Assembly (NCBI RefSeq): GCF_022808915.1
Contig: NZ_JAKZFS010000004.1
Coordinates: 1-64,000, forward strand
DNA: 64,000 nt
Origin: Fundidesulfovibrio terrae
GTDB taxonomy: Bacteria > Desulfobacterota > Desulfovibrionia > Desulfovibrionales > Desulfovibrionaceae
Reading direction: 5' to 3'
The translations under genes and the position numbers were made by a program. The notes under the pieces are model-generated. The model was not told the DNA's origin. It saw only the letters and a program-made list of their open reading frames with translations, and made no database searches. Shown here in pieces: positions 47,798 through 60,477 of this stretch (position 1 is the stretch's first letter; every line of letters starts with the position of its first letter).

Positions 47798-48253
47798 CTA
47801 CTGCTGGCCCTGGTTCATCTGCTGCATCTGTTCGGGCGTCATTTCCTTCATCTGGCCGGGAGGCGTCTGCTTCTGCTCGGGCGCCATGTCCATCTTCATC
47901 CCGCCATGCTCGGACGGCATGGCCTTCATCTGTTCAGGGGACATCATCTTCATCTGCTCGGGCGTCATCATCTTCATCTGTTCCGGCGACATCTGGCGGA
48001 TCTGGTCGGGAGTCAGCTGGCGCATCTGTTCGGGGGGCATCTGATGGATCTGCTCGGGCGTCATCTGGCGGATGTCCGTGGGCGACATCTGCTTCATTTG
48101 TTCGGGCGTCATCTGGTGCATCTGCCCGGAGCCGGACTGGCCGCCGTGCTGCATCTGGGCCTGGGCCGCGCCGGGACCGGACAGCCCGGTCATTCCGCCG
48201 AGGACGAGGAGGGACGCGGCCGTAATGGAAAGAACCTTCATTTTGCTTTTCAT
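47798..48253 (-). CDS. Exported Met-rich octapeptide-repeat protein in the metal efflux operon
   Basis: 151 residues from the ATG at 48253, which has GAGG 6 nt upstream; an ATG at 48265 overlapping the previous stop is an alternative. Signal peptide 1-33. Residues 46-117 are nine tandem 8-residue units of the form [H/K/R]-[Q/M/A]-M-[T/S/P]-P-E-Q-[M/I], and one more unit lies at 136-143. Met makes up a large share of the mature protein, and there is no Cys. It lies between the outer-membrane factor and cusB genes, so a periplasmic Cu(I)/Ag(I) buffer or chaperone role is likely. I recognise no established family. Confidence 0.8.
   Translation of the reverse strand: MKSKMKVLSITAASLLVLGGMTGLSGPGAAQAQMQHGGQSGSGQMHQMTPEQMKQMSPTDIRQMTPEQIHQMPPEQMRQLTPDQIRQMSPEQMKMMTPEQMKMMSPEQMKAMPSEHGGMKMDMAPEQKQTPPGQMKEMTPEQMQQMNQGQQ
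47903..48118 (-). repeat. 24-bp tandem repeats encoding Met-Pro-Glu-Gln octapeptides
   Basis: Nine in-frame units of 24 bp, diverged at third positions and at codons 1, 2, 4 and 8 of the unit. The consensus codes for xQM(T/S)PEQM. Divergence shows selection on protein sequence rather than recent slippage. Confidence 0.85.
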
Positions 48254-48261
48254 GATGAACC

Positions 48262-49716
48262 TCATTTCATGTCGGAGTTGGCGTGTTGCCCACCGGCCAT
48301 GGCGTCCTTGCCCGCGCCGTTGCCGGTGTCGAGAGATTTGGGGAGGGTGATGCCGTCGGTGATGCCGGCCAGGCTTTCCAGGCGCGCCACGGCCTTCTGC
48401 TTTTCGGCCAGCTGCGCCCAGTACTGCACTTCGTAATCCAGGACGCTCTTAAGCCTCGAGACCACCGCGTAGATGTCTCCCTTGCCCGCCGCGTACCCGG
48501 CCATGGCCAGCTGGAAATCTTGGCGGCTCTTGGGAAGGGTGCCCGAGGCGAACAGTTCGCTCAGGCGTTCGGCGGACTGGAGCATGGAGTAGTTTTCCCG
48601 GATGGAGGAGGCGATCATGTTCTTGCCCGCCTCCAGGTCGTACTTCGATTCCGCCAGGTCCGACCTGGACTCCTTCAACCCCTCGGCCTGCTTGACGAAA
48701 AAGAAGATGGGCACGGTCATGGAAACGCTGGCGCTCCACATGTCCGTCCACTTCTGCTTGTTTCCCGCCGGGGTGGACGCGTCCGAGCCGGAGCTGTCCG
48801 CGCCGGTGACCACCTGCGGGCTCTGGCTGACCTTGTACCCTTTCTGGGAATACCCGGCGGACAGGGTCACGTCGGGCACGAATTCAGCCTTGGCCTGGGA
48901 CACCTTGGCCTCGGCCTTCTCCACTTTCTTCATCCGGGCCTTGGTTTCGGGCGAATCGAAGGACGCCTTCACCAGGAGGTCGTCGAGGCTTCTCTTGTAG
49001 GGGGCTTTCGAGGGCTCGGCGGGCGTGCCCAGGGGAGACTTCACGTCCCTGCCCAGGAGGGAGTTGAGCATGCCCTCCAGGGTGGAAAGCCGCTGGCGGA
49101 CCATCTCCGCCTTTTCCAGCAGCATGTATTTTTCGGTCTGGGCCATGACCGCATCGCGCTGGTCGCCCATGCCCGAGGCGTACCGGGCCAGGGCCGACTT
49201 CTCGACCTGGTCGAGGAGCTTGGCCTTTTCCTGAAGAATGTCGATGGTCCGGTGGGCGGTGAACAGGTCGTAATAGAGTTCCTTGACCCGGGCCACCGTG
49301 GCCAGGCGCAGGGCGGTGTACTGAAGGCCCAGGGTCTCCATTTCCTTCTCGGCCACCTTGCCCTTCTGCACCAGCTTGCCCGGGAAGGGCACGGTCTGGG
49401 ACACGCCGAAGGCCCACACGGAATCGTAGGAGTTGCCGAAGGTGTACTGGCTGAGCCCCTCGTTGGTGTACCCGGCCGAGACCATGGGGTCGGGCAGGGC
49501 CTTGGCCTGCGGGATGCGGTGCCTGGCCGACTCCACCCGAGACTGCCCTGCGGCGATCTCGGGATTGTTCTTGAGGGCTTCGCCGACCAGGGATTGCAGA
49601 TCCATGTCCTGAGCCCGGGCATTGGCGGCGACGGCCAGGACGATGCAGGCCACGGCGGCGATACGGCGGAACGGACACCGGCGCGCGCGGCGCGGACGAA
49701 GAGGTTGAGTGGTCAT
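48262..49716 (-). CDS. cusC: CusC/TolC-type outer-membrane efflux factor
   Basis: 484 residues from the ATG at 49716; an upstream in-frame start at 49758 would precede the signal peptide by 14 unlikely residues. Signal peptide with 'AAVACIVLAVAANARAQ'. Two outer-membrane efflux domains with long periplasmic helices ('NNPEIAAGQSRVESARHRIP', 'KVEKAEAKVSQAKAEFVPDV'). No lipobox, unlike E. coli CusC, so the name is by position. First gene of the metal efflux operon; its stop overlaps or abuts the Met-rich gene. Confidence 0.88.
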   Translation of the reverse strand: MTTQPLRPRRARRCPFRRIAAVACIVLAVAANARAQDMDLQSLVGEALKNNPEIAAGQSRVESARHRIPQAKALPDPMVSAGYTNEGLSQYTFGNSYDSVWAFGVSQTVPFPGKLVQKGKVAEKEMETLGLQYTALRLATVARVKELYYDLFTAHRTIDILQEKAKLLDQVEKSALARYASGMGDQRDAVMAQTEKYMLLEKAEMVRQRLSTLEGMLNSLLGRDVKSPLGTPAEPSKAPYKRSLDDLLVKASFDSPETKARMKKVEKAEAKVSQAKAEFVPDVTLSAGYSQKGYKVSQSPQVVTGADSSGSDASTPAGNKQKWTDMWSASVSMTVPIFFFVKQAEGLKESRSDLAESKYDLEAGKNMIASSIRENYSMLQSAERLSELFASGTLPKSRQDFQLAMAGYAAGKGDIYAVVSRLKSVLDYEVQYWAQLAEKQKAVARLESLAGITDGITLPKSLDTGNGAGKDAMAGGQHANSDMK

Positions 49717-50779: not shown

Positions 50780-50815
50780 GTGCAGCCGGCTGCACATCGA
50801 CCGTGCACATGTGCA
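50780..50815. promoter_or_regulatory. Two adjacent perfect palindromes upstream of the sigma-54 activator
   Basis: GTGCAGCCGGCTGCAC (50780-50795, 16-bp perfect palindrome) and TGCACATGTGCA (50804-50815, 12-bp perfect palindrome), with a further GTGCAC at 50830-50835. They share TGCA/GTGCA half-sites and lie 137-172 bp before the start codon. Likely operator cluster; the binding protein is unknown. Confidence 0.5.
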
Positions 50816-50951
50816 GCCGTTCTCCCGGACGTGCACCCGGCGGCCCGCGCTCCCGGCTGGACTCCGGCCATGGGCTGGACTAGGACGGGAGCGCCATCCC
50901 CCGTGGGCCCGCCCGCGCGGACCCGGTGGCCATCAGGGAGGACCGTCGGCC

Positions 50952-52676
<1,725 letters not shown>

Positions 52677-53124: not shown

Positions 53125-54537
53125 ATGGGTCTTTTGGGTCCTGCCTTGAAGCGAGAGTTTGGGAAACAGCAACCTTTCATCCCGCTCGGGCCATTCCAGC
53201 TCCGGCTCCCGTTCATCCATTACCGGTTCGAGCCCCCCGATTTCATCCAGGGCCTGCTCATGTGCGCCGTGTGCCTGGGCGTCATTCCGCTCCTGCAGGA
53301 ATACCTGGGCATGCCTTTCGAGATCGCCATCACCATCGTCATCCTGAACGGCTTCTTCTACCTCTGGCACGCCCACCTCGGCGACCCCGTGGTGCCCGGC
53401 TGGATCACTCCCGCCATCCCGCTTCTGCTCCTGTGGCTCAAGACCTTCCCGGAAGGCGTGCCCAGAATCCACGCCCTCATCGCCTTCGAGTTCGAACTGG
53501 GCCTGTTCTCCTTCCTGCTGGGCGCCACGGGCATGGCCAAGCGCTTCGTGGACCTGGTGCCGGACGCACTGAAATCGGGCATTCTGCTCGGGGCGGGCAT
53601 CGCGGCCGTGCGCCTGGTGTTCCAGTCCGGGGGCCGTTTCGACTCCTATCCCTGGACCATCACCATCTCCATCGGCTTCGCCTTCTACATTCTCTTCTCC
53701 AACCATTTCAAAACGCTGCGTTCCAAAAGCACGCTCCTCAAGCACATATCCGACCTGGGCCTCATGCCGGCCCTGGTGCTGGCCATCATCGTGGCCCCGC
53801 TGGTGAAGGAGCTTCCGCTCCCGGACATCAAATGGGGATTCACGGTGCCCCAGTTCACGGAGCTCTTCACCCAATGGACGCCCTTCGCCGAGCGCATCGG
53901 CTGGCCGCCCATCAGCATGTATCTTGACGCCGCTCCCCTGGTCTTCGCGGTGTACATCGTGCTCTTCGGCGAGCTGATCCAGGCCGAGGCGCTTATCGAC
54001 GAAGCCCGCGAGCACCGCCACGGCGACGAGGACATCCACTTCAACGCCAACCGCAACAACCAGATCGTGGGCCTGCGCAACATGGGCATGTCCATGCTCG
54101 GCCCGGACATCTCCATGTGCGGCCCCATGTGGGCGGCCATGCAGGTGGTGGAGTGCGAACGCTACAAGCACGGCCCCGAAGCCATGGACAGCCTCTACGG
54201 CGGCGTGGGCTCCTTCCGCTGGGGGACGTTCGCGGGGTATTTCTTCTCCCCCATCGTCACCCTGGTGAAGCCCATCCTACCCATCGCCCTGTCCCTGACC
54301 ATGCTGGTGCAGGGCTACGTGGCGGTGCGCGTGGGCATCCTCAAGGCCAAGACCTTCAACGACCTGGGCGTGGCCGGAATCATCGCGGCCGTGCTCATCA
54401 CCCGCGAGGCGGCCGCGGCCTTCGGCGTGGGCATCGTCCTGTGCCTGCTCATCTACGGCAAGGACTTCTTCCGCAAGTGGGAGCGCTACGACAAGCACAA
54501 GGACCCCGTCTTCAACAAGAAGATCGGGCAGGAGTAG
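53125..54537 (+). CDS. Multi-spanning membrane permease, substrate unknown
   Basis: 470 residues from the ATG at 53125 (AAAGGGGGG upstream). About ten to twelve hydrophobic helices, e.g. 'LLMCAVCLGVIPLLQEYLGM', 'GFAFYILFSNHF' and 'LGVAGIIAAVLITREAAAAF'; a polar loop 'EAREHRHGDEDIHFNANRNN' lies in the middle. The arrangement is reminiscent of NCS2/SulP-type carriers, but I cannot assign it confidently. Located between the sigma-54 activator and the alcohol dehydrogenase, it probably imports or exports the substrate or product of the alcohol/aldehyde enzymes. Confidence 0.7.
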   Translation: MGLLGPALKREFGKQQPFIPLGPFQLRLPFIHYRFEPPDFIQGLLMCAVCLGVIPLLQEYLGMPFEIAITIVILNGFFYLWHAHLGDPVVPGWITPAIPLLLLWLKTFPEGVPRIHALIAFEFELGLFSFLLGATGMAKRFVDLVPDALKSGILLGAGIAAVRLVFQSGGRFDSYPWTITISIGFAFYILFSNHFKTLRSKSTLLKHISDLGLMPALVLAIIVAPLVKELPLPDIKWGFTVPQFTELFTQWTPFAERIGWPPISMYLDAAPLVFAVYIVLFGELIQAEALIDEAREHRHGDEDIHFNANRNNQIVGLRNMGMSMLGPDISMCGPMWAAMQVVECERYKHGPEAMDSLYGGVGSFRWGTFAGYFFSPIVTLVKPILPIALSLTMLVQGYVAVRVGILKAKTFNDLGVAGIIAAVLITREAAAAFGVGIVLCLLIYGKDFFRKWERYDKHKDPVFNKKIGQE

Positions 54538-54585: not shown

Positions 54586-55743
54586 ATGAACAGGATCACC
54601 ACGTTCCAGACCACGGCCAGGATCGTCATGGGGCCGGGGGCGCTGGAGAGCATCGGAGCGGAGATCACGCGGCTGGGCGCGGGCAAGGTCATGGTCGTCA
54701 CCGACCCCGGGCTGGTCAAGACCGGGCTGGTGGCCAAGCTGGAGGAGCTCCTGGCGGCCGCCGGGATAGCGGCCACGCGCTTCGACGAGGTGGAGGCCGA
54801 CCCCTCCTACGAGACGGCCATCAAGGCGGCCGAGCACGTCAAGCAGGCCGGGGCGGAACTCATCGTGGGCATCGGCGGCGGCTCGGCCCAGGACGTGGCC
54901 AAGGTGTCTTCCATCCTGGCCACCAACGCCGGGCCGGTTTCGCAGTACTTCGGCATCGACCTGGTGCCGCGTCCGGGGCTCAAGCTGATCCTGGTGCCCA
55001 CCACGGCGGGCACGGGCAGCGAGGTCACGCCCATCGCCATCCTCTCCGACCACCACGAGAAGCTCAAGAAGGGCATCGTCAGCGCCCATCTCTTCCCGTC
55101 CACGGCCATACTGGATCCGCTCCTGACCCTGGGCCTGCCGTCCCACGTCACTGCGGCCACCGGCATGGACGCCCTGATCCACGCCGTGGAGGCCTTCACC
55201 TCCAAGAACGCCACCGCCATGACCGACATGCTGGCCCTCCAGGCCATCAAGCTGGTGTACGGCAGCATCCGCACCGCGTTCTCCAACGGCTCGGACGTGG
55301 ACGCCCGCGCCAGGATGCTGGAGGGCAGCATGCTGGCGGGCATGGCCTTCGCCAACGCGGGGGTCACGGCGGTGCACGCCTTCGCCTACCCCATCGGGGC
55401 CGAGTACCACATCCCCCACGGCGTGGCCAACAGCATCATGCTGGTGCCCGTCATGGAGTTCAACATGCTGGGGAACATCCCCAAGTTCGCCATCCTGGCC
55501 GAGGTGCTTGGCGAGAACGTGGCCGGGCTCTCCCAGCGGGACGCGGCCCTCAAGGCGGTGGCCGCCATGCGCGTGCTCTCCGCCGACCTCCAGGTGCCCG
55601 CCAGGCTGAGCGCCTTCGGGGTCAAGGACGAGAACATCCCGGATCTGGCCAAGGGGGTCATGAAGGTGACGCGCCTGTTGGCCAACAACCCGCGCCTGCT
55701 CAAGGTCGAGGACGCCGAGGCCATATACAGGTGCGTGCTCTGA
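54586..55743 (+). CDS. Iron-containing alcohol dehydrogenase
   Basis: 385 residues of the Fe-ADH family. The nucleotide-binding 'VGIGGGSAQDVAKVSSIL' and the metal ligands in 'GMDALIHAVEAFTS', 'VTAVHAFAYPIG' and 'YHIPHGVANSIML' are all present. It interconverts alcohols and aldehydes with NAD(P)H. GAGGTGAG precedes the ATG. It sits 48 bp after the permease and 115 bp before the AOR, which fits a pathway alcohol to aldehyde to acid. Confidence 0.93.
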   Translation: MNRITTFQTTARIVMGPGALESIGAEITRLGAGKVMVVTDPGLVKTGLVAKLEELLAAAGIAATRFDEVEADPSYETAIKAAEHVKQAGAELIVGIGGGSAQDVAKVSSILATNAGPVSQYFGIDLVPRPGLKLILVPTTAGTGSEVTPIAILSDHHEKLKKGIVSAHLFPSTAILDPLLTLGLPSHVTAATGMDALIHAVEAFTSKNATAMTDMLALQAIKLVYGSIRTAFSNGSDVDARARMLEGSMLAGMAFANAGVTAVHAFAYPIGAEYHIPHGVANSIMLVPVMEFNMLGNIPKFAILAEVLGENVAGLSQRDAALKAVAAMRVLSADLQVPARLSAFGVKDENIPDLAKGVMKVTRLLANNPRLLKVEDAEAIYRCVL

Positions 55744-55858: not shown

Positions 55859-57622
55859 ATGTTCGGATTCTACGGCAGGATACTCACGGTGGACCTCACC
55901 AACCGGAAGTACTCGATCGACGCCCTCGCGCCCGAGCTTCTGGAGTCGGTGCTGGGCGGCAAGGGCCTGGGAACGAGCCTGCTCCTATCGCGCAACCCGG
56001 CCGGCGCGGACCCCCTGGGCCCCGACAACCGGCTGATCTTCGCCACGGGCCCCTTCTGCGGTGGCCCGGTCTGGGGCGGGAGCCGCTACGGTGTGTTCAC
56101 CAAGTCCCCCCTGACCGGATTTTACGCCGAATCCTACTCGGGGGGCAAAGTGCCCGAGGCCATCGACCGGGCCGGATTCGACGCCGTGGTCATCGAGGGG
56201 GCTTCGGACCGTCCGGTGGCCCTGGCTATCCATCCCGAGGGCTGCGCGTTCCACGACGCCTCGTCCCTGTGGGGCATGGAAACCTACGACGCCGAGCGGG
56301 CGGCCAGGGACTCCCTGGGCGTGGACAAACCGGGCTTCGGGGCGCCGGGCGCGGTGGTCATCGGCCCGGCCGGGGAGCGGCTGGTGCGCTATGCGCTCAT
56401 CGCCAACGATTTCTGGCGCTGCGCGGGCCGGGCCGGGGTGGGCGCGGTCATGGGCTCCAAGCGGCTCAAGGCCGTGGTCTTCCAGGGTGACCGCAAGCGC
56501 GGGCTGGCCGACCCCAGGGGCGTGCGGGCCTACGCCTCGGAGTTCGCCAAGGCGGGCAAGGAAAACAAGGGCGTGAAGGCCTACAAAGCCTACGGCACCA
56601 CCATGATGGTGGCGCTCATGAACACCGCCGGGGCCTTCCCCGCCAAGTACTGGAGCCAGGGCAGCTGCGACCACTGGCAGAAGATCAGCGGGGAGACCTT
56701 CCACAAGGAGCACGACGTCACCCCACACGCCTGCCTGAAATGTTTCATGGCCTGCGGGCGCATGGCCAGGCTGACCAAGGGCCGCCACCAGGGCCTGCAG
56801 CTGGAGGGGCCGGAATACGAGACCATCTACGCCTTCGGCGGCCTGTGCATGATCGAGGAGATGGACGAGATCGTCTGGCTGAACGACCTGTGCGACCGCC
56901 TGGGCCTGGACACCATCACCGCCGGCAACCTCTGCGCCCTGGCCATCGAGGCCTGCCGCCGGGGCAAGCTGGACCTGGGCCTGGACTACGGCGATTTCGA
57001 GGGCGTGGGCAGGCTCATCCAGGACATCGCCGCCCGGAGCGGCCACGGCGCGCTCATGGCCGAGGGCATCATCCCCACGGCCGAGGCCTGGGGGCTTTCG
57101 GACCTGGCCATCCACGTCAAGGGCATGGAGCCGCCGGGATACGACCCGCGCGCGCTCAAGGGCATGGGCCTGGCCTACGGCACGTCGCCCAGGGGGGCCT
57201 GCCACCTGCGCACCACGTTCTACAAGCCGGAGCTGGCCGGGTTCATCCCCGCCGACGCCATCGAGGGCAAGGCCGAGATGCTCACCGACTACGAGGACCG
57301 CCTGACCATCTTCGACACCCTCATCCTCTGCCGCTTCTACCGGGACATGTACACCTGGGAGGAGCTGGAAAAGGCCGTGGGCCTGGTCACGGGCCTGGAC
57401 GCCTCCAGGGAGGAGCTCAGGCGCAAGGCCGCGCGCGTCCTTAACCTCACCCGGGAGTTCAACCTGCGCGAGGGGCTCACGGCCAAGGACGACCGCCTGC
57501 CCGGGCGCCTGCACCGGGAGGCCCTGCCCGACGGCCGGAGCCTGACCGCGGCCGAGATGGAGACCCTGCTGGCCGACTACTACCGCCTGCGCGGCTGGAA
57601 AGCCGACGGCACGATGGCATAG
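55859..57622 (+). CDS. aor: Tungsten/molybdenum aldehyde ferredoxin oxidoreductase
   Basis: 587 residues from the ATG at 55859 (AAGGA upstream). The N-terminus 'GFYGRILTVDLTNRKYSIDA' and 'GGKGLGTSLLL' are typical of AOR. The pterin-binding segments ('FCGGPVWGGSRYGVFTKSPL', 'GAVGSKRLK'-like 'GAVMGSKRLKAVVFQG') and the [4Fe-4S] Cys motif 'CLKCFMACG' with a later Cys ('LCRFYRD') are intact. It oxidises aldehydes to acids (or the reverse) with ferredoxin, using a W- or Mo-bispyranopterin. It is immediately upstream of the HesB-like UGA-containing gene. Confidence 0.95.
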   Translation: MFGFYGRILTVDLTNRKYSIDALAPELLESVLGGKGLGTSLLLSRNPAGADPLGPDNRLIFATGPFCGGPVWGGSRYGVFTKSPLTGFYAESYSGGKVPEAIDRAGFDAVVIEGASDRPVALAIHPEGCAFHDASSLWGMETYDAERAARDSLGVDKPGFGAPGAVVIGPAGERLVRYALIANDFWRCAGRAGVGAVMGSKRLKAVVFQGDRKRGLADPRGVRAYASEFAKAGKENKGVKAYKAYGTTMMVALMNTAGAFPAKYWSQGSCDHWQKISGETFHKEHDVTPHACLKCFMACGRMARLTKGRHQGLQLEGPEYETIYAFGGLCMIEEMDEIVWLNDLCDRLGLDTITAGNLCALAIEACRRGKLDLGLDYGDFEGVGRLIQDIAARSGHGALMAEGIIPTAEAWGLSDLAIHVKGMEPPGYDPRALKGMGLAYGTSPRGACHLRTTFYKPELAGFIPADAIEGKAEMLTDYEDRLTIFDTLILCRFYRDMYTWEELEKAVGLVTGLDASREELRRKAARVLNLTREFNLREGLTAKDDRLPGRLHREALPDGRSLTAAEMETLLADYYRLRGWKADGTMA

Positions 57623-57723
57623 GCCGGGCAGGCCTTGGGCCATGACCTTGCGGGGACCGCCGGACAGGCCATGGCGCGCGGCGTGTCCGCACAACCTCGC
57701 GTAAACGACGGAGTGATGCGGCC

Positions 57724-58050
57724 ATGATCGTTATCGAACCCGAAGCGGCGGCCTATGTCCGGAAACGGTCCGCTTCCCTGTGTGTCGGCTTCAAGTTCGA
57801 GTCGGCCATGGGGGGCTGAGCCTGTTCCTCAAAAAGGGTAACAGGTAGTTACATCCCCTTCGTCAGCGCGGGAGCCCCCCTGGATGCGGCGGGCTACCGC
57901 GTTGAATCGATCGACGGCATCGAGGTTTTCCTGGCGCCCGGGCTCACGCTGAAGCAGGGGCACAGGCGCATGCGTGTCGTGCTGAAGCGCTTTTTCTTCC
58001 TGCGCTGGCTGGAACTGGAGGGGGCCAAGGCCGTTCCCGTCTACGAATGA
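57724..58050 (+). CDS. HesB-like selenoprotein with in-frame UGA (Sec32)
   Basis: One frame runs from the ATG at 57724 to TGA at 58048-58050, interrupted only by a TGA at 57817-57819. Read through, it gives 108 residues: 'MIVIEPEAAAYVRKRS', then 'ESAMGG-Sec-ACSS', then 'YIPFVSAGAPLDAAGYRVES' and 'GIEVFLAPGLTLKQG', ending 'LRWLELEGAKAVPVYE'. This is the layout of small HesB/IscA-like proteins in which a Cys (or Sec) follows the Gly-rich turn. A bacterial SECIS-like hairpin starts at the correct distance. Gene finders that stop at TGA will miss it or call only 31 residues. It lies 101 bp after the AOR gene. Role in cluster or sulfur/selenium handling for AOR is inferred. Confidence 0.78.
57838..57852 (+). 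promoter_or_regulatory. Bacterial SECIS-like hairpin
   Basis: GTAAC (57838-57842) pairs with GTTAC (57848-57852) around the loop AGGTA, with AAGG (57834-57837) able to pair with CCTT (57857-57860) below a bulge. The loop begins 23 nt after the UGA and has GG at its second and third positions, matching the usual bSECIS rule (short upper stem, loop G, 16-37 nt from UGA). An alternative stem CCTGTT/AACAGG (57821-57826/57840-57845) is also possible. Confidence 0.6.
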
Positions 58051-58089: not shown

Positions 58090-60477
58090 CTAGGCGCGTA
58101 ACTTGCCGGACACCCGTTTGATGACCTCGCAGAGCGAGTCCATGTCCACCGGCTTGGCGAGGTAGTCGGTCATGCCCGCCTCGATGAATTTGCTTCTGTC
58201 CCCGGCCATGGCGAAGGCGGTCAGCGCAATGACAGGGATGCGTGCCTTGTCCGCTCCGGCAATCCCGTCGCGGATGCGCCTGGTGGCCTCCACTCCGTCC
58301 AGGGCGGGCATCTGGACATCCATGAAGACCAGGTCGAAATCCTGCTCGATAAAAAGCTGAAGCGCCTCCTTGCCGTCCTTGGCGGTGGTGACGGCGAACC
58401 CGTATTTCTCGAGCATCCACTTGCCGGAAAGAGAGCTTATCGCGTCGTCTTCCGCGAACAGAATCCGCAACGGGGACTCCGAGCCCGGGAGGAACGCGGG
58501 GCTGGGCTCGTCCGCTTCGGAAGGGGCTTCCTCCGGGACCTTGAAGGGCAGGGAAAGGTGTACGGCCGTGCCTTCCCCTGCCGTGCTCTCGATGGATACG
58601 TTCCCGCCCATCAGCGCCACCAGCCGCTTGACAATGGAGAGCCCGAGGCCTGCGCCCTGGAAACGCCGGGTGTATGAACTCTCCGCTTGAACGAACGGCT
58701 CGAAAATGACCTTCAGGTTCTGGTCGGTGATGCCTATGCCCGTGTCGCTGACAGTGACCAGGACACGGACATTCGAACCGCGCGATCCCGGCAACAGGGA
58801 CGCTTCGACCCGGACGCGGCCCGTGTCGGTGAATTTGATGGCGTTGCCGACAAGGTTGAAAAGAATTTGCCGCAGGCGCGCCTCGTCCCCGATGAGCACC
58901 GGAGGGACGTCCTCCCCGGTGTGGAATTCCAGCCTGAGTCCTTTCGTGCTGGCTTGCGAGTCGAAGAGTTCCTTGATGGATTGCTTTGTCTTGTTCATGT
59001 CGAAAGGGGATTCGACGATGTGCAACTGTCCGGCCTCGACCTTTGAAATATCGAGTATGTCGGAAAGTAGTCCGGTCAGGCGGTGGGTCGATTTGATCGC
59101 GGCCTTCAGGTATTCTTTCTGGTCGCCGCTCTGGGCCGAGACTTTCAGCAGTTCCAGCATTCCGAGGATGCCGTTGAGCGGAGTCCTGATCTCATGGCTC
59201 ATGTTGGCCAGGAATTCCGACTTGGCCCTAGTCGACGCCTCCGCGACGTCGCGGGCCTCGCGGAGTTCCGCCACGGTTCGGTTGAGGTCGGCGGTCCGTT
59301 CCTGAACGGTCGCCTCGAGTTCGTCGTTGGCGGATCTGAGAGACTCTTCCTCGATCTTGCGTTTGGTGATGTCCCTGAGGGCGGCGAGAAAAGCCTGCCG
59401 GTCCTGGATTTCAACCACCGTGAGCATGACTTCGGCCTGGAACGCTTCCCCGCTTGCCCGGACGAACGTCCATTCGAACATGTGTGAACCGCTCTCCCGG
59501 GCCGAGGACAGCATCCTGGCGAGTTTCTCCCCGGAGCGGTGTCCGTCGGGCTGAAAGGCCGGGGAGATGTCGTTCATGGTAAGGCCGCCGGTCGGGGATT
59601 CGGCGGGAAATCGCATCAGGGCGGCGGCGGCGGGGTTGCGTTCGAGGATGGTTTCGTCGTCGAGGAGCAGCATGGCGTCCGAAGTGTTTTCGAACAGGGA
59701 GCGGAACCGCTGTTCGCTTTGGAGCAGCCGGGCCTTGGCGATGTCCCGGTCGTATCGGGCCTCGGCCACGGCAAGGTCCGACTTGGCCTGGATCGCGCGC
59801 CGGTTGACGAACACGAGGATTCCGAGCTGCGACAGGCCCAGGGCCAACGAGGACGCGAGGACGATGCCGAGCGCGTTTCTCATGTCCGTGGTGGTGGGGG
59901 TTATGTCCGAATACACCTCGGCCGCCCCGGCGAATGTGCCCTCGCGCATGATGGGGATGTAGGTTTCGATGACGTCTTTCGTGATTTTCGATCCGCCAGC
60001 CGACCGGTGTCCCTTGTCGACGAGCTTTTGGTAGGTGGACCCCTTTTTGACTATCGTTTCAAAATAATCATTCTCGTTTTTTCTGCCAAAATGCTGATCA
60101 GCATACGAGTATATCTCAACTCCATTCTTCGAATATATCCTTACGTTGTAAATGTCATAACTGTTGATGAGTTTTATTATGTTGCTTATCAGGGATTTGT
60201 CGCTGATTTCCGTGTCGCTGTTGAGCTCGTTTCCGGAAACAAGATCCGCTAGTTGGGTTGTTATTTTGCGGGATTCATATTCTTCTCGCAAAAGAATATG
60301 AGATTTAAATGTCGTGTACAGGATGTATGTAGGGATTGATGGGATGCATATCATAAGAATTGAAGAGAGGAGGAGGGGCTTACTGATGTTAAGCGAGCGA
60401 ATTCTCCTGGAGAAAGAGCCAGTAATGTAACGTTCCCATGCTGCCTGAATGAGAGATTTTCCGGTTCCCGGAGCCAT
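58090..60477 (-). CDS. Hybrid sensor histidine kinase with response-regulator domain
   Basis: 795 residues. Two membrane helices (about 33-55 and 200-225) enclose a periplasmic sensor domain of about 145 residues. A PAS domain (about 255-375), coiled coil, HisKA ('[20 protein letters not shown]'), ATPase ('[20 protein letters not shown]', '[18 protein letters not shown]') and a C-terminal receiver ('[14 protein letters not shown]') follow. Codon use in the periplasmic part (about 59950-60400) is clearly AT-richer than in the rest of the gene. It converges with the selenoprotein gene, 39 bp apart. Confidence 0.9.

Follow-up and report, generated by a model that had tools for sequence, protein, structure and literature searches.

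The short gene analysed here has its nearest described relatives in NF041239, the CC/Se motif family (seleno)protein (Moor_selen_rel). A 2026 review includes this family in its table of known and predicted selenoproteins as "CC/Se motif family selenoprotein (hypothetical protein predicted in Moorella thermoacetica)" and, as far as that table shows, it is a named family without a published function (PMC13188914). The HesB-like selenoprotein (TIGR01911), which is treated in PMC1794560, has the motif UxGP according to the same review (PMC13188914). A look-up of terms in PMC5029168 and PMC2398784 returned nothing on the NF041239 family. Our literature search found no published tie of an NF041239 selenoprotein to 4-hydroxybutyrate breakdown or to a NifU-like gene, though a mention in some relevant paper is still possible, and no report joining 4-hydroxybutyrate, succinic semialdehyde and aldehyde ferredoxin oxidoreductase.

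We analysed a stretch of 64,000 nucleotides from Fundidesulfovibrio terrae (the window), in which a short gene at 57724-58050, seemingly broken by a stop codon, most likely encodes a selenium-containing protein. It follows, in this order, the genes of an activator, a permease, an iron-containing alcohol dehydrogenase (Fe-ADH) and an aldehyde:ferredoxin oxidoreductase (AOR) (Table 1), and its neighbours in other bacteria suggest a role in helping anaerobes to feed on 4-hydroxybutyrate.

Table 1. Features of the island in the window, with the evidence for each
Feature	Position	Strand	Evidence
PAS / sigma-54 activator, start codon uncertain	50811..52676	+	PF00158, PF00989 (from 50922); homologues head many related islands
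Permease, proposed 4-hydroxybutyrate importer	53125..54537	+	76-88% identical to permeases beside AbfD/AbfT at the nine top-ranking bait loci (L062-L070)
Iron-containing alcohol dehydrogenase, proposed 4-hydroxybutyrate dehydrogenase	54586..55743	+	PF00465/PF25137
AOR, proposed succinic semialdehyde oxidase	55859..57622	+	PF01314/PF02730; 9mqx, 1aor
GGAG, possible ribosome-binding site	57710..57713	+	Sequence reading; upstream of ATG
Putative selenoprotein gene, 108 residues with Sec32 (M...ESAMGG-U-ACSS...)	57724..58050	+	Open across TGA; NF041239 match
UGA codon, putatively read as selenocysteine	57817..57819	+	TGA or Cys codon in aligned homologues
bSECIS-like apical hairpin GUAAC[AGGUA]GUUAC	57838..57852	+	Folding; codon-register comparison with relatives
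Convergent gene, histidine kinase-like by eye, marks island end	58090..60477	-	ORF list; outside the system

Reading frame, family and hairpin of the probable selenoprotein gene

Translation confirmed what the initial annotation had read from the letters, namely a frame open on both sides of a single in-frame TGA, which is codon 32; the frame is terminated by another TGA at codon 109. Close homologues align to the 108-residue product over almost its whole length. Two features by which bacterial selenoproteins are recognised were found: the in-frame UGA is aligned with Cys in homologues (TGT or TGC at residue 32 in nine members, as had been anticipated), and the genome encodes all four Sec genes named in the initial annotation, each above its cut-off, which are selA (608.8 bits, cut-off 267.9), selB (360.5 bits, cut-off 242.25), selD (337.2 bits, cut-off 125; its own frame contains one in-frame TGA) and the tRNA-Sec gene selC (79.4 bits, cut-off 47; anticodon TCA). 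The assignment as a selenoprotein gene thus held, given homologues with the same TGA or Cys, a hairpin that tracks the TGA and complete Sec machinery. A chance read-through frame is ruled out by the homologues sharing the TGA or Cys.

The read-through protein matched NF041239 with 44.2 bits (cut-off 40; E 1.5e-11; residues 2-100 on positions 3-90 of the 91 in the model) and with 41.0 bits in the genome scan, and judged by this match the gene is a new member of an already listed selenoprotein family. To call it "overlooked" was therefore too strong for the family, which already stands in the review table (PMC13188914). Among 297 genomes of the order, NF041239 gave 15 matches in 14 genomes (E ≤ 0.01), 12 of which contain at least one TGA; one of the three TGA-free matches (L010) is above the cut-off yet has neither Cys nor Sec in the motif. 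Column 32 is Cys or Sec in all 13 members of an alignment which was chosen by hand and leaves out L010. The motif is UxC here and takes the forms CU, CxU and UU in other members. Two members, L009 (G007) and L022 (G013; below the NF041239 cut-off), have two TGA codons in a row within the motif (G-U-U-S and G-U-U-R), possibly an adjacent Sec pair, and G266 contains tandem NF041239 genes (L014, L023) with the unlike motifs RGC-U-GGG and RGCG-U-AS.

The initial annotation had called the protein HesB-like, which stands for the predicted fold and fails for the family. No Pfam family, PF01521 (HesB/IscA) included, matched the read-through protein at E ≤ 1, and the whole-genome scan with TIGR01911 (curated cut-off 66.35 bits) gave no match at the gene at E ≤ 1, so that the family name HesB was rejected and is kept only for the fold. 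TIGR01911 did find two adjacent genes elsewhere in the genome, both below the cut-off. This HesB-type pair (L038, G000:C1:1066430-1066633; L037, 1066940-1067179) has one member with an in-frame TGA (SSGG-U-AGPR) and one with Cys; the UxGP motif of TIGR01911 is present in L038 as UAGP and absent from the window protein, which has UACS.

A bacterial SECIS element is a hairpin whose first two loop bases include a G and which lies 16-37 nt after the UGA. In the window, the stem 57838-57842 pairs with 57848-57852 and encloses the loop AGGUA (57843-57847), which is in agreement with this rule; the 5-bp upper stem, the GG loop and the spacing of 23 nt had been described correctly, provided that the 23 nt are counted from the UGA to the loop. 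Taken alone, the window hairpin is weak. Its upper stem amounts to -2.4 kcal/mol, the minimum-energy fold directly after the UGA is another, mutually exclusive hairpin, and synonymous draws equal its unbroken pairs in 3.4% (P 0.034). No Rfam family matched the window at gathering scores.

The case for a SECIS hairpin comes from the comparison with relatives, in which the same TGA and a stem at the same codon place recur. The hairpins of 20 members were compared in codon register by script, the DNA alignment of this region being gapped: 11 TGA members (the window, G169/L041, L062, L065, L069, L070, L111, L112, L113, L115 and L116) and nine Cys members (L063, L064, L110, L114, L117-L120 and L124), with L121-L123 (other motif) and L125 left out. 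At least five unbroken pairs (G-U counted) at the same codon place were found in 10 of the 11 TGA members and 1 of the 9 Cys members (Fisher 0.0009, uncorrected for relatedness and with a 5-pair threshold chosen after the data had been seen). For L118 and L119 the script chose an earlier Cys, and the hairpin place was fixed by the GSY codons. Tested singly against synonymous draws, the TGA members range from P 0.005 to 0.30, since pairing is already promoted by the conserved amino-acid sequence. The exception among the TGA members is G169, which has one mismatch within a longer stem and is the least significant of them against the draws. Among the Cys members it is L124, in which TGC is followed by a perfect 9-pair SECIS-like stem; its frame breaks downstream and no permease match stands beside it (L124 9449 onwards, G435), and this looks like a recent Sec-to-Cys change. 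In L065 and L069, hairpins other than the one at this codon place score better. L122 and L123 have the Sec codon further along the motif (GGSC-U-KGD), and the displaced TGA is followed at 21-22 nt by a hairpin; synonymous draws match it in 14 of 1500 (L123) and 341 of 1500 (L122), so its accompanying the shifted codon is suggestive only.

The TGA and hairpin are retained in homologues from other phyla. The Sec/Cys state switches six times in a tree built from 22 members, at least three of them on well-supported branches. The homologue in G169, from another genus of the same taxonomic family, is 46% identical and has the same GG-U-ACS.

Related islands and a probable 4-hydroxybutyrate pathway

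The ADH of the window reaches no NCBIfam cut-off; its best model is SarD (sulfoacetaldehyde reductase, 360 of 700), and 4-hydroxybutyrate dehydrogenase scores 241 of 500. 4-Hydroxybutyrate as the substrate therefore rests on the permease and the neighbours. The sigma-54 control proposed in the initial annotation is plausible from the adjacent activator gene, while the promoter part of the claim gained nothing: a -24/-12 scan of the window with at most two mismatches counted 50 matches, where shuffled sequences averaged 74, which is uninformative. Elsewhere in the window, 47798-48265 (-) encodes a protein built of MTPEQMKQMSPEQ-type repeats.

The G169 stretch has the same gene set in a different order, with the selenoprotein gene again last, and it was the only one of 13 stretches around other NF041239 members, searched for the window's genes only, to show the island. 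Near the G169 island lies a second AOR (L041 4602-6827), and downstream of it a short ORF (92 residues) that by eye resembles MoaD/ThiS. Neither the window nor the G169 stretch has a match to SSADH, AbfD, AbfT or a NifU-like protein, and AbfD was not found in the genome of the window by a search run without a positive control.

With the permease as bait, a scan of genome contigs gave 12 named loci, and the selenoprotein gene is present at six within the stretch examined, with TGA in L062, L065, L069 and L070 and with TGT in L063 and L064. No AOR match was found in these six islands. Every one of them yielded matches for 4-hydroxybutyryl-CoA dehydratase and 4-hydroxybutyrate CoA-transferase, for a NifU-like protein and for a small GGCNPR protein, by tblastn beyond L063, in which the dehydratase scored 790.7 bits to 1u8v, the NifU-like protein matched PF01106 and the CoA-transferase matched 3eh7. 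The small protein (L063 13172-13498 and homologues) carries FCGGCNPRID and later Cys motifs, lies between the NifU-like and CoA-transferase genes and has no family above cut-off. A protein of about 186 residues (L062 9267-9827 and homologues), with no NCBIfam or Pfam match, often stands directly before the selenoprotein gene. In L073 (Bacillota), the permease (59%) stands beside an Fe-ADH and an aldehyde dehydrogenase, best scored as lactaldehyde dehydrogenase (374 of 646 as SSADH), and there is no selenoprotein gene.

In the class to which L063's genome belongs, 30 of 380 genomes also gave selenoprotein matches (E ≤ 1e-6), and neighbourhoods were taken from 16 of these together with two stretches with weak matches. 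Scored with profiles built in this analysis, all 17 AbfD islands that have a NifU-like gene also contain the selenoprotein gene (11 of the 17 found with the selenoprotein gene itself as bait), and the four without a NifU-like gene (L067, L068, L071, L146) have no selenoprotein gene. With the permease as sole bait, the counts are 6 of 6 and 0 of 4 (Fisher 0.005, a value inflated, like the others, by relatedness and bait choice, in a table defined after the data had been seen). This table leaves out L066 (contig ends 83 bases past AbfT), L111 and L112 (contig edge), L118, L119, L125 and the AbfD-free loci; L124 is counted in it and in the hairpin comparison, although its selenoprotein-gene frame breaks. 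Both AOR islands with the selenoprotein gene, those of the window and G169, have no NifU-like gene. L118 and L119 are Cys forms without any island gene nearby, the weak matches L126 and L127 showed no island gene, and those in two further genomes (L147, L148) had no island adjoining.

Within the taxonomic family of the window, the permease is found in 10 of 288 genomes; those of the window and G169 are 89% identical, while the others are 39-54% identical over long matches. Seven neighbourhoods from the other eight genomes were taken (G319 was left out), and all seven (L141-L146, L149) are without the selenoprotein gene. L141, L144 and L145 have the order activator-permease-ADH-SSADH, L142 has SSADH-permease-ADH-AOR with an AOR 61% identical to that of the window, L146 has AbfT-AbfD-permease, L149 ends after the ADH and L143 shows the permease only. 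SSADH is above the TIGR01780 cut-off once in L141 and twice in L142, and was found by tblastn only in L144 and L145. Related ADH and SSADH genes stand beside more distant permeases (52-54%).

The AOR occupies the place that SSADH has in other islands (L142 has both), so the simplest reading is a route from 4-hydroxybutyrate through succinic semialdehyde to succinate. The window probably encodes this route with the AOR as the last step, the substrate being deduced from exchangeable neighbours. In the permease tree (midpoint root), the window and G169 share a group (100/99) with the permeases of three AbfD islands from Bacillota. This suggests that the island has been transferred and its enzymes exchanged; the island of the window was probably imported.

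Predicted fold and possible role of the protein

The AlphaFold2 model from seven family members (pLDDT 87.7, pTM 0.77) predicts a HesB/IscA-like fold for the window protein. SufA and IscA fill the first six rows of the Foldseek search (E 0.0065 to 0.018; 12-15% identity), and rows 7 to 10 (9a4q chain B, 1nwb, 2apn and DsrR 2k4z) are presumably of HesB type. The best VIA row is IscA 1r94 (Z 8.1, rmsd 3.0, 84 aligned residues); since a top Z of 7 to 8 is often reached and may reflect a common arrangement, the case for the fold lies in the agreement of the structural rows. A profile of 13 family members matched none of the PDB sequences at E ≤ 10. The hhalign comparison with the HesB proteins of the same genome is weak (probability 19.7) and places GGC on GGC, with the Sec column on the GGC column of HesB. 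A-type carriers hold their cluster by three ligands, a loop Cys and a C-terminal C-x-C. The window protein has no Cys after residue 34, and the C-terminal Cys pair of such carriers is absent.

The reading that we favour, with moderate confidence, is that of an NF041239 selenoprotein which receives Sec through SelA/B/C/D and the hairpin, belongs to a 4-hydroxybutyrate island and services an Fe-S enzyme with its U-x-C loop. Comparative evidence backs the decoding signals, the family, the predicted fold and the placing in a 4-hydroxybutyrate-type island. The UGA at 57817 would be decoded as Sec by the SelA, SelB, SelC and SelD of the genome, guided by the hairpin at 57838-57852. The permease would import 4-hydroxybutyrate, the Fe-ADH would convert it into succinic semialdehyde, and the AOR would oxidise this to succinate, passing the electrons to ferredoxin. 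The likeliest task of the loop's Sec and Cys would be to make up a site for redox chemistry or for binding metal or Fe-S, perhaps shared between the two halves of a dimer, and this site may service an oxygen-sensitive Fe-S enzyme, 4-hydroxybutyryl-CoA dehydratase in most islands and the AOR here. Both enzymes carry [4Fe-4S] clusters. Handling of Fe-S or metal-thiol is preferred because of the fold, the partner gene and the pathway. Against the Fe-S part speak the NifU-free AOR islands, L142 and the isolated Cys forms L118 and L119. Against the whole reading speak L142, which has AOR, ADH, permease and SSADH but no selenoprotein gene, so that the selenoprotein is not needed for such an AOR; the motif of L010 without Cys or Sec; the missing Cys pair; the modest Foldseek (0.0065 at best) and hhalign (19.7) values; and ADH models that favour other alcohols above 4-hydroxybutyrate.

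The main rival is a plain thiol/selenol redox protein, whose U-x-C selenenylsulfide would reduce an oxidised protein or scavenge a reactive aldehyde or acyl-CoA and do no cluster work. The interchange of Sec and Cys, the varying place of Sec in the motif (UxC, CU, CxU, UU) and the missing C-terminal Cys pair agree with it, but the association with the NifU-like gene across AbfD islands and the HesB/IscA-like predicted fold do not, and we regard it as possible but on balance doubtful. We consider it unlikely that the favoured reading can be carried as far as a dedicated Sec-containing HesB-fold Fe-S/metal chaperone which, with the NifU-like protein, builds or repairs the [4Fe-4S] enzyme of 4-hydroxybutyrate breakdown, with Sec as a cluster ligand and with Sec and SECIS mobile in the motif.

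The initial annotation had raised a link to AOR maturation. In the form considered here, a HesB-like selenoprotein of the TIGR01911 family would mature the neighbouring AOR. The predicted fold, the presence of AOR in the islands of the window and G169 and the hhalign placement of Sec on the HesB GGC column are consistent with this, but TIGR01911 misses this gene and yet detects two loci elsewhere in the genome, AOR went unmatched in all six permease-bait islands that carry the gene, and L142, with related permease, ADH and AOR, lacks the gene. The link thus lost its footing: AOR maturation was rejected as a general role on account of islands with the gene but no AOR match together with an AOR island without it, and the proposal for this locus is quite improbable. 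That translation really ends at the TGA, or that this codon arose by sequencing error or decay and a pseudogene lies behind it, is hardly credible. The window hairpin, weak by itself and in competition with a stronger fold, would fit this explanation, but the same TGA in the same motif occurs in ten homologues, the downstream half is conserved and the Sec machinery is complete.

Through its association with 4-hydroxybutyrate islands and the NifU-like gene, NF041239 gains a pathway and a partner that can be tested. From the AOR and SSADH of the islands, a tungsten-type enzyme is predicted to act as succinic semialdehyde oxidase. The Sec/Cys switches and the shifted Sec codon with matching hairpin spacing make this family a good case for the gain and loss of selenocysteine.

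Comparison with known systems

The window product is like NF041239 in scoring above the cut-off and in carrying Sec and Cys in the loop motif, while its motif is GG-U-A-C and that of the family is CxxU with one Sec in the review's listing (PMC13188914). It resembles the HesB-like selenoprotein TIGR01911 in predicted fold class and, if a weak alignment is followed, in where Sec lies, but it has no HMM match and U-A-C-S replaces U-x-G-P. It also shares the predicted fold of the A-type carriers IscA and SufA (PF01521), and its loop would take the place of their first Cys, as judged from sequence and not from a printed structural alignment; it differs from them in having no Pfam match, no C-terminal Cys pair and only 11-16% identity in structural alignments. 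Close relatives of the window's permease, activator and selenoprotein elsewhere adjoin the 4-hydroxybutyrate CoA-transferase/dehydratase pathway (AbfT/AbfD, 3eh7, 1u8v), whereas the window, in which AbfD and AbfT have no match, holds an ADH and an AOR instead.
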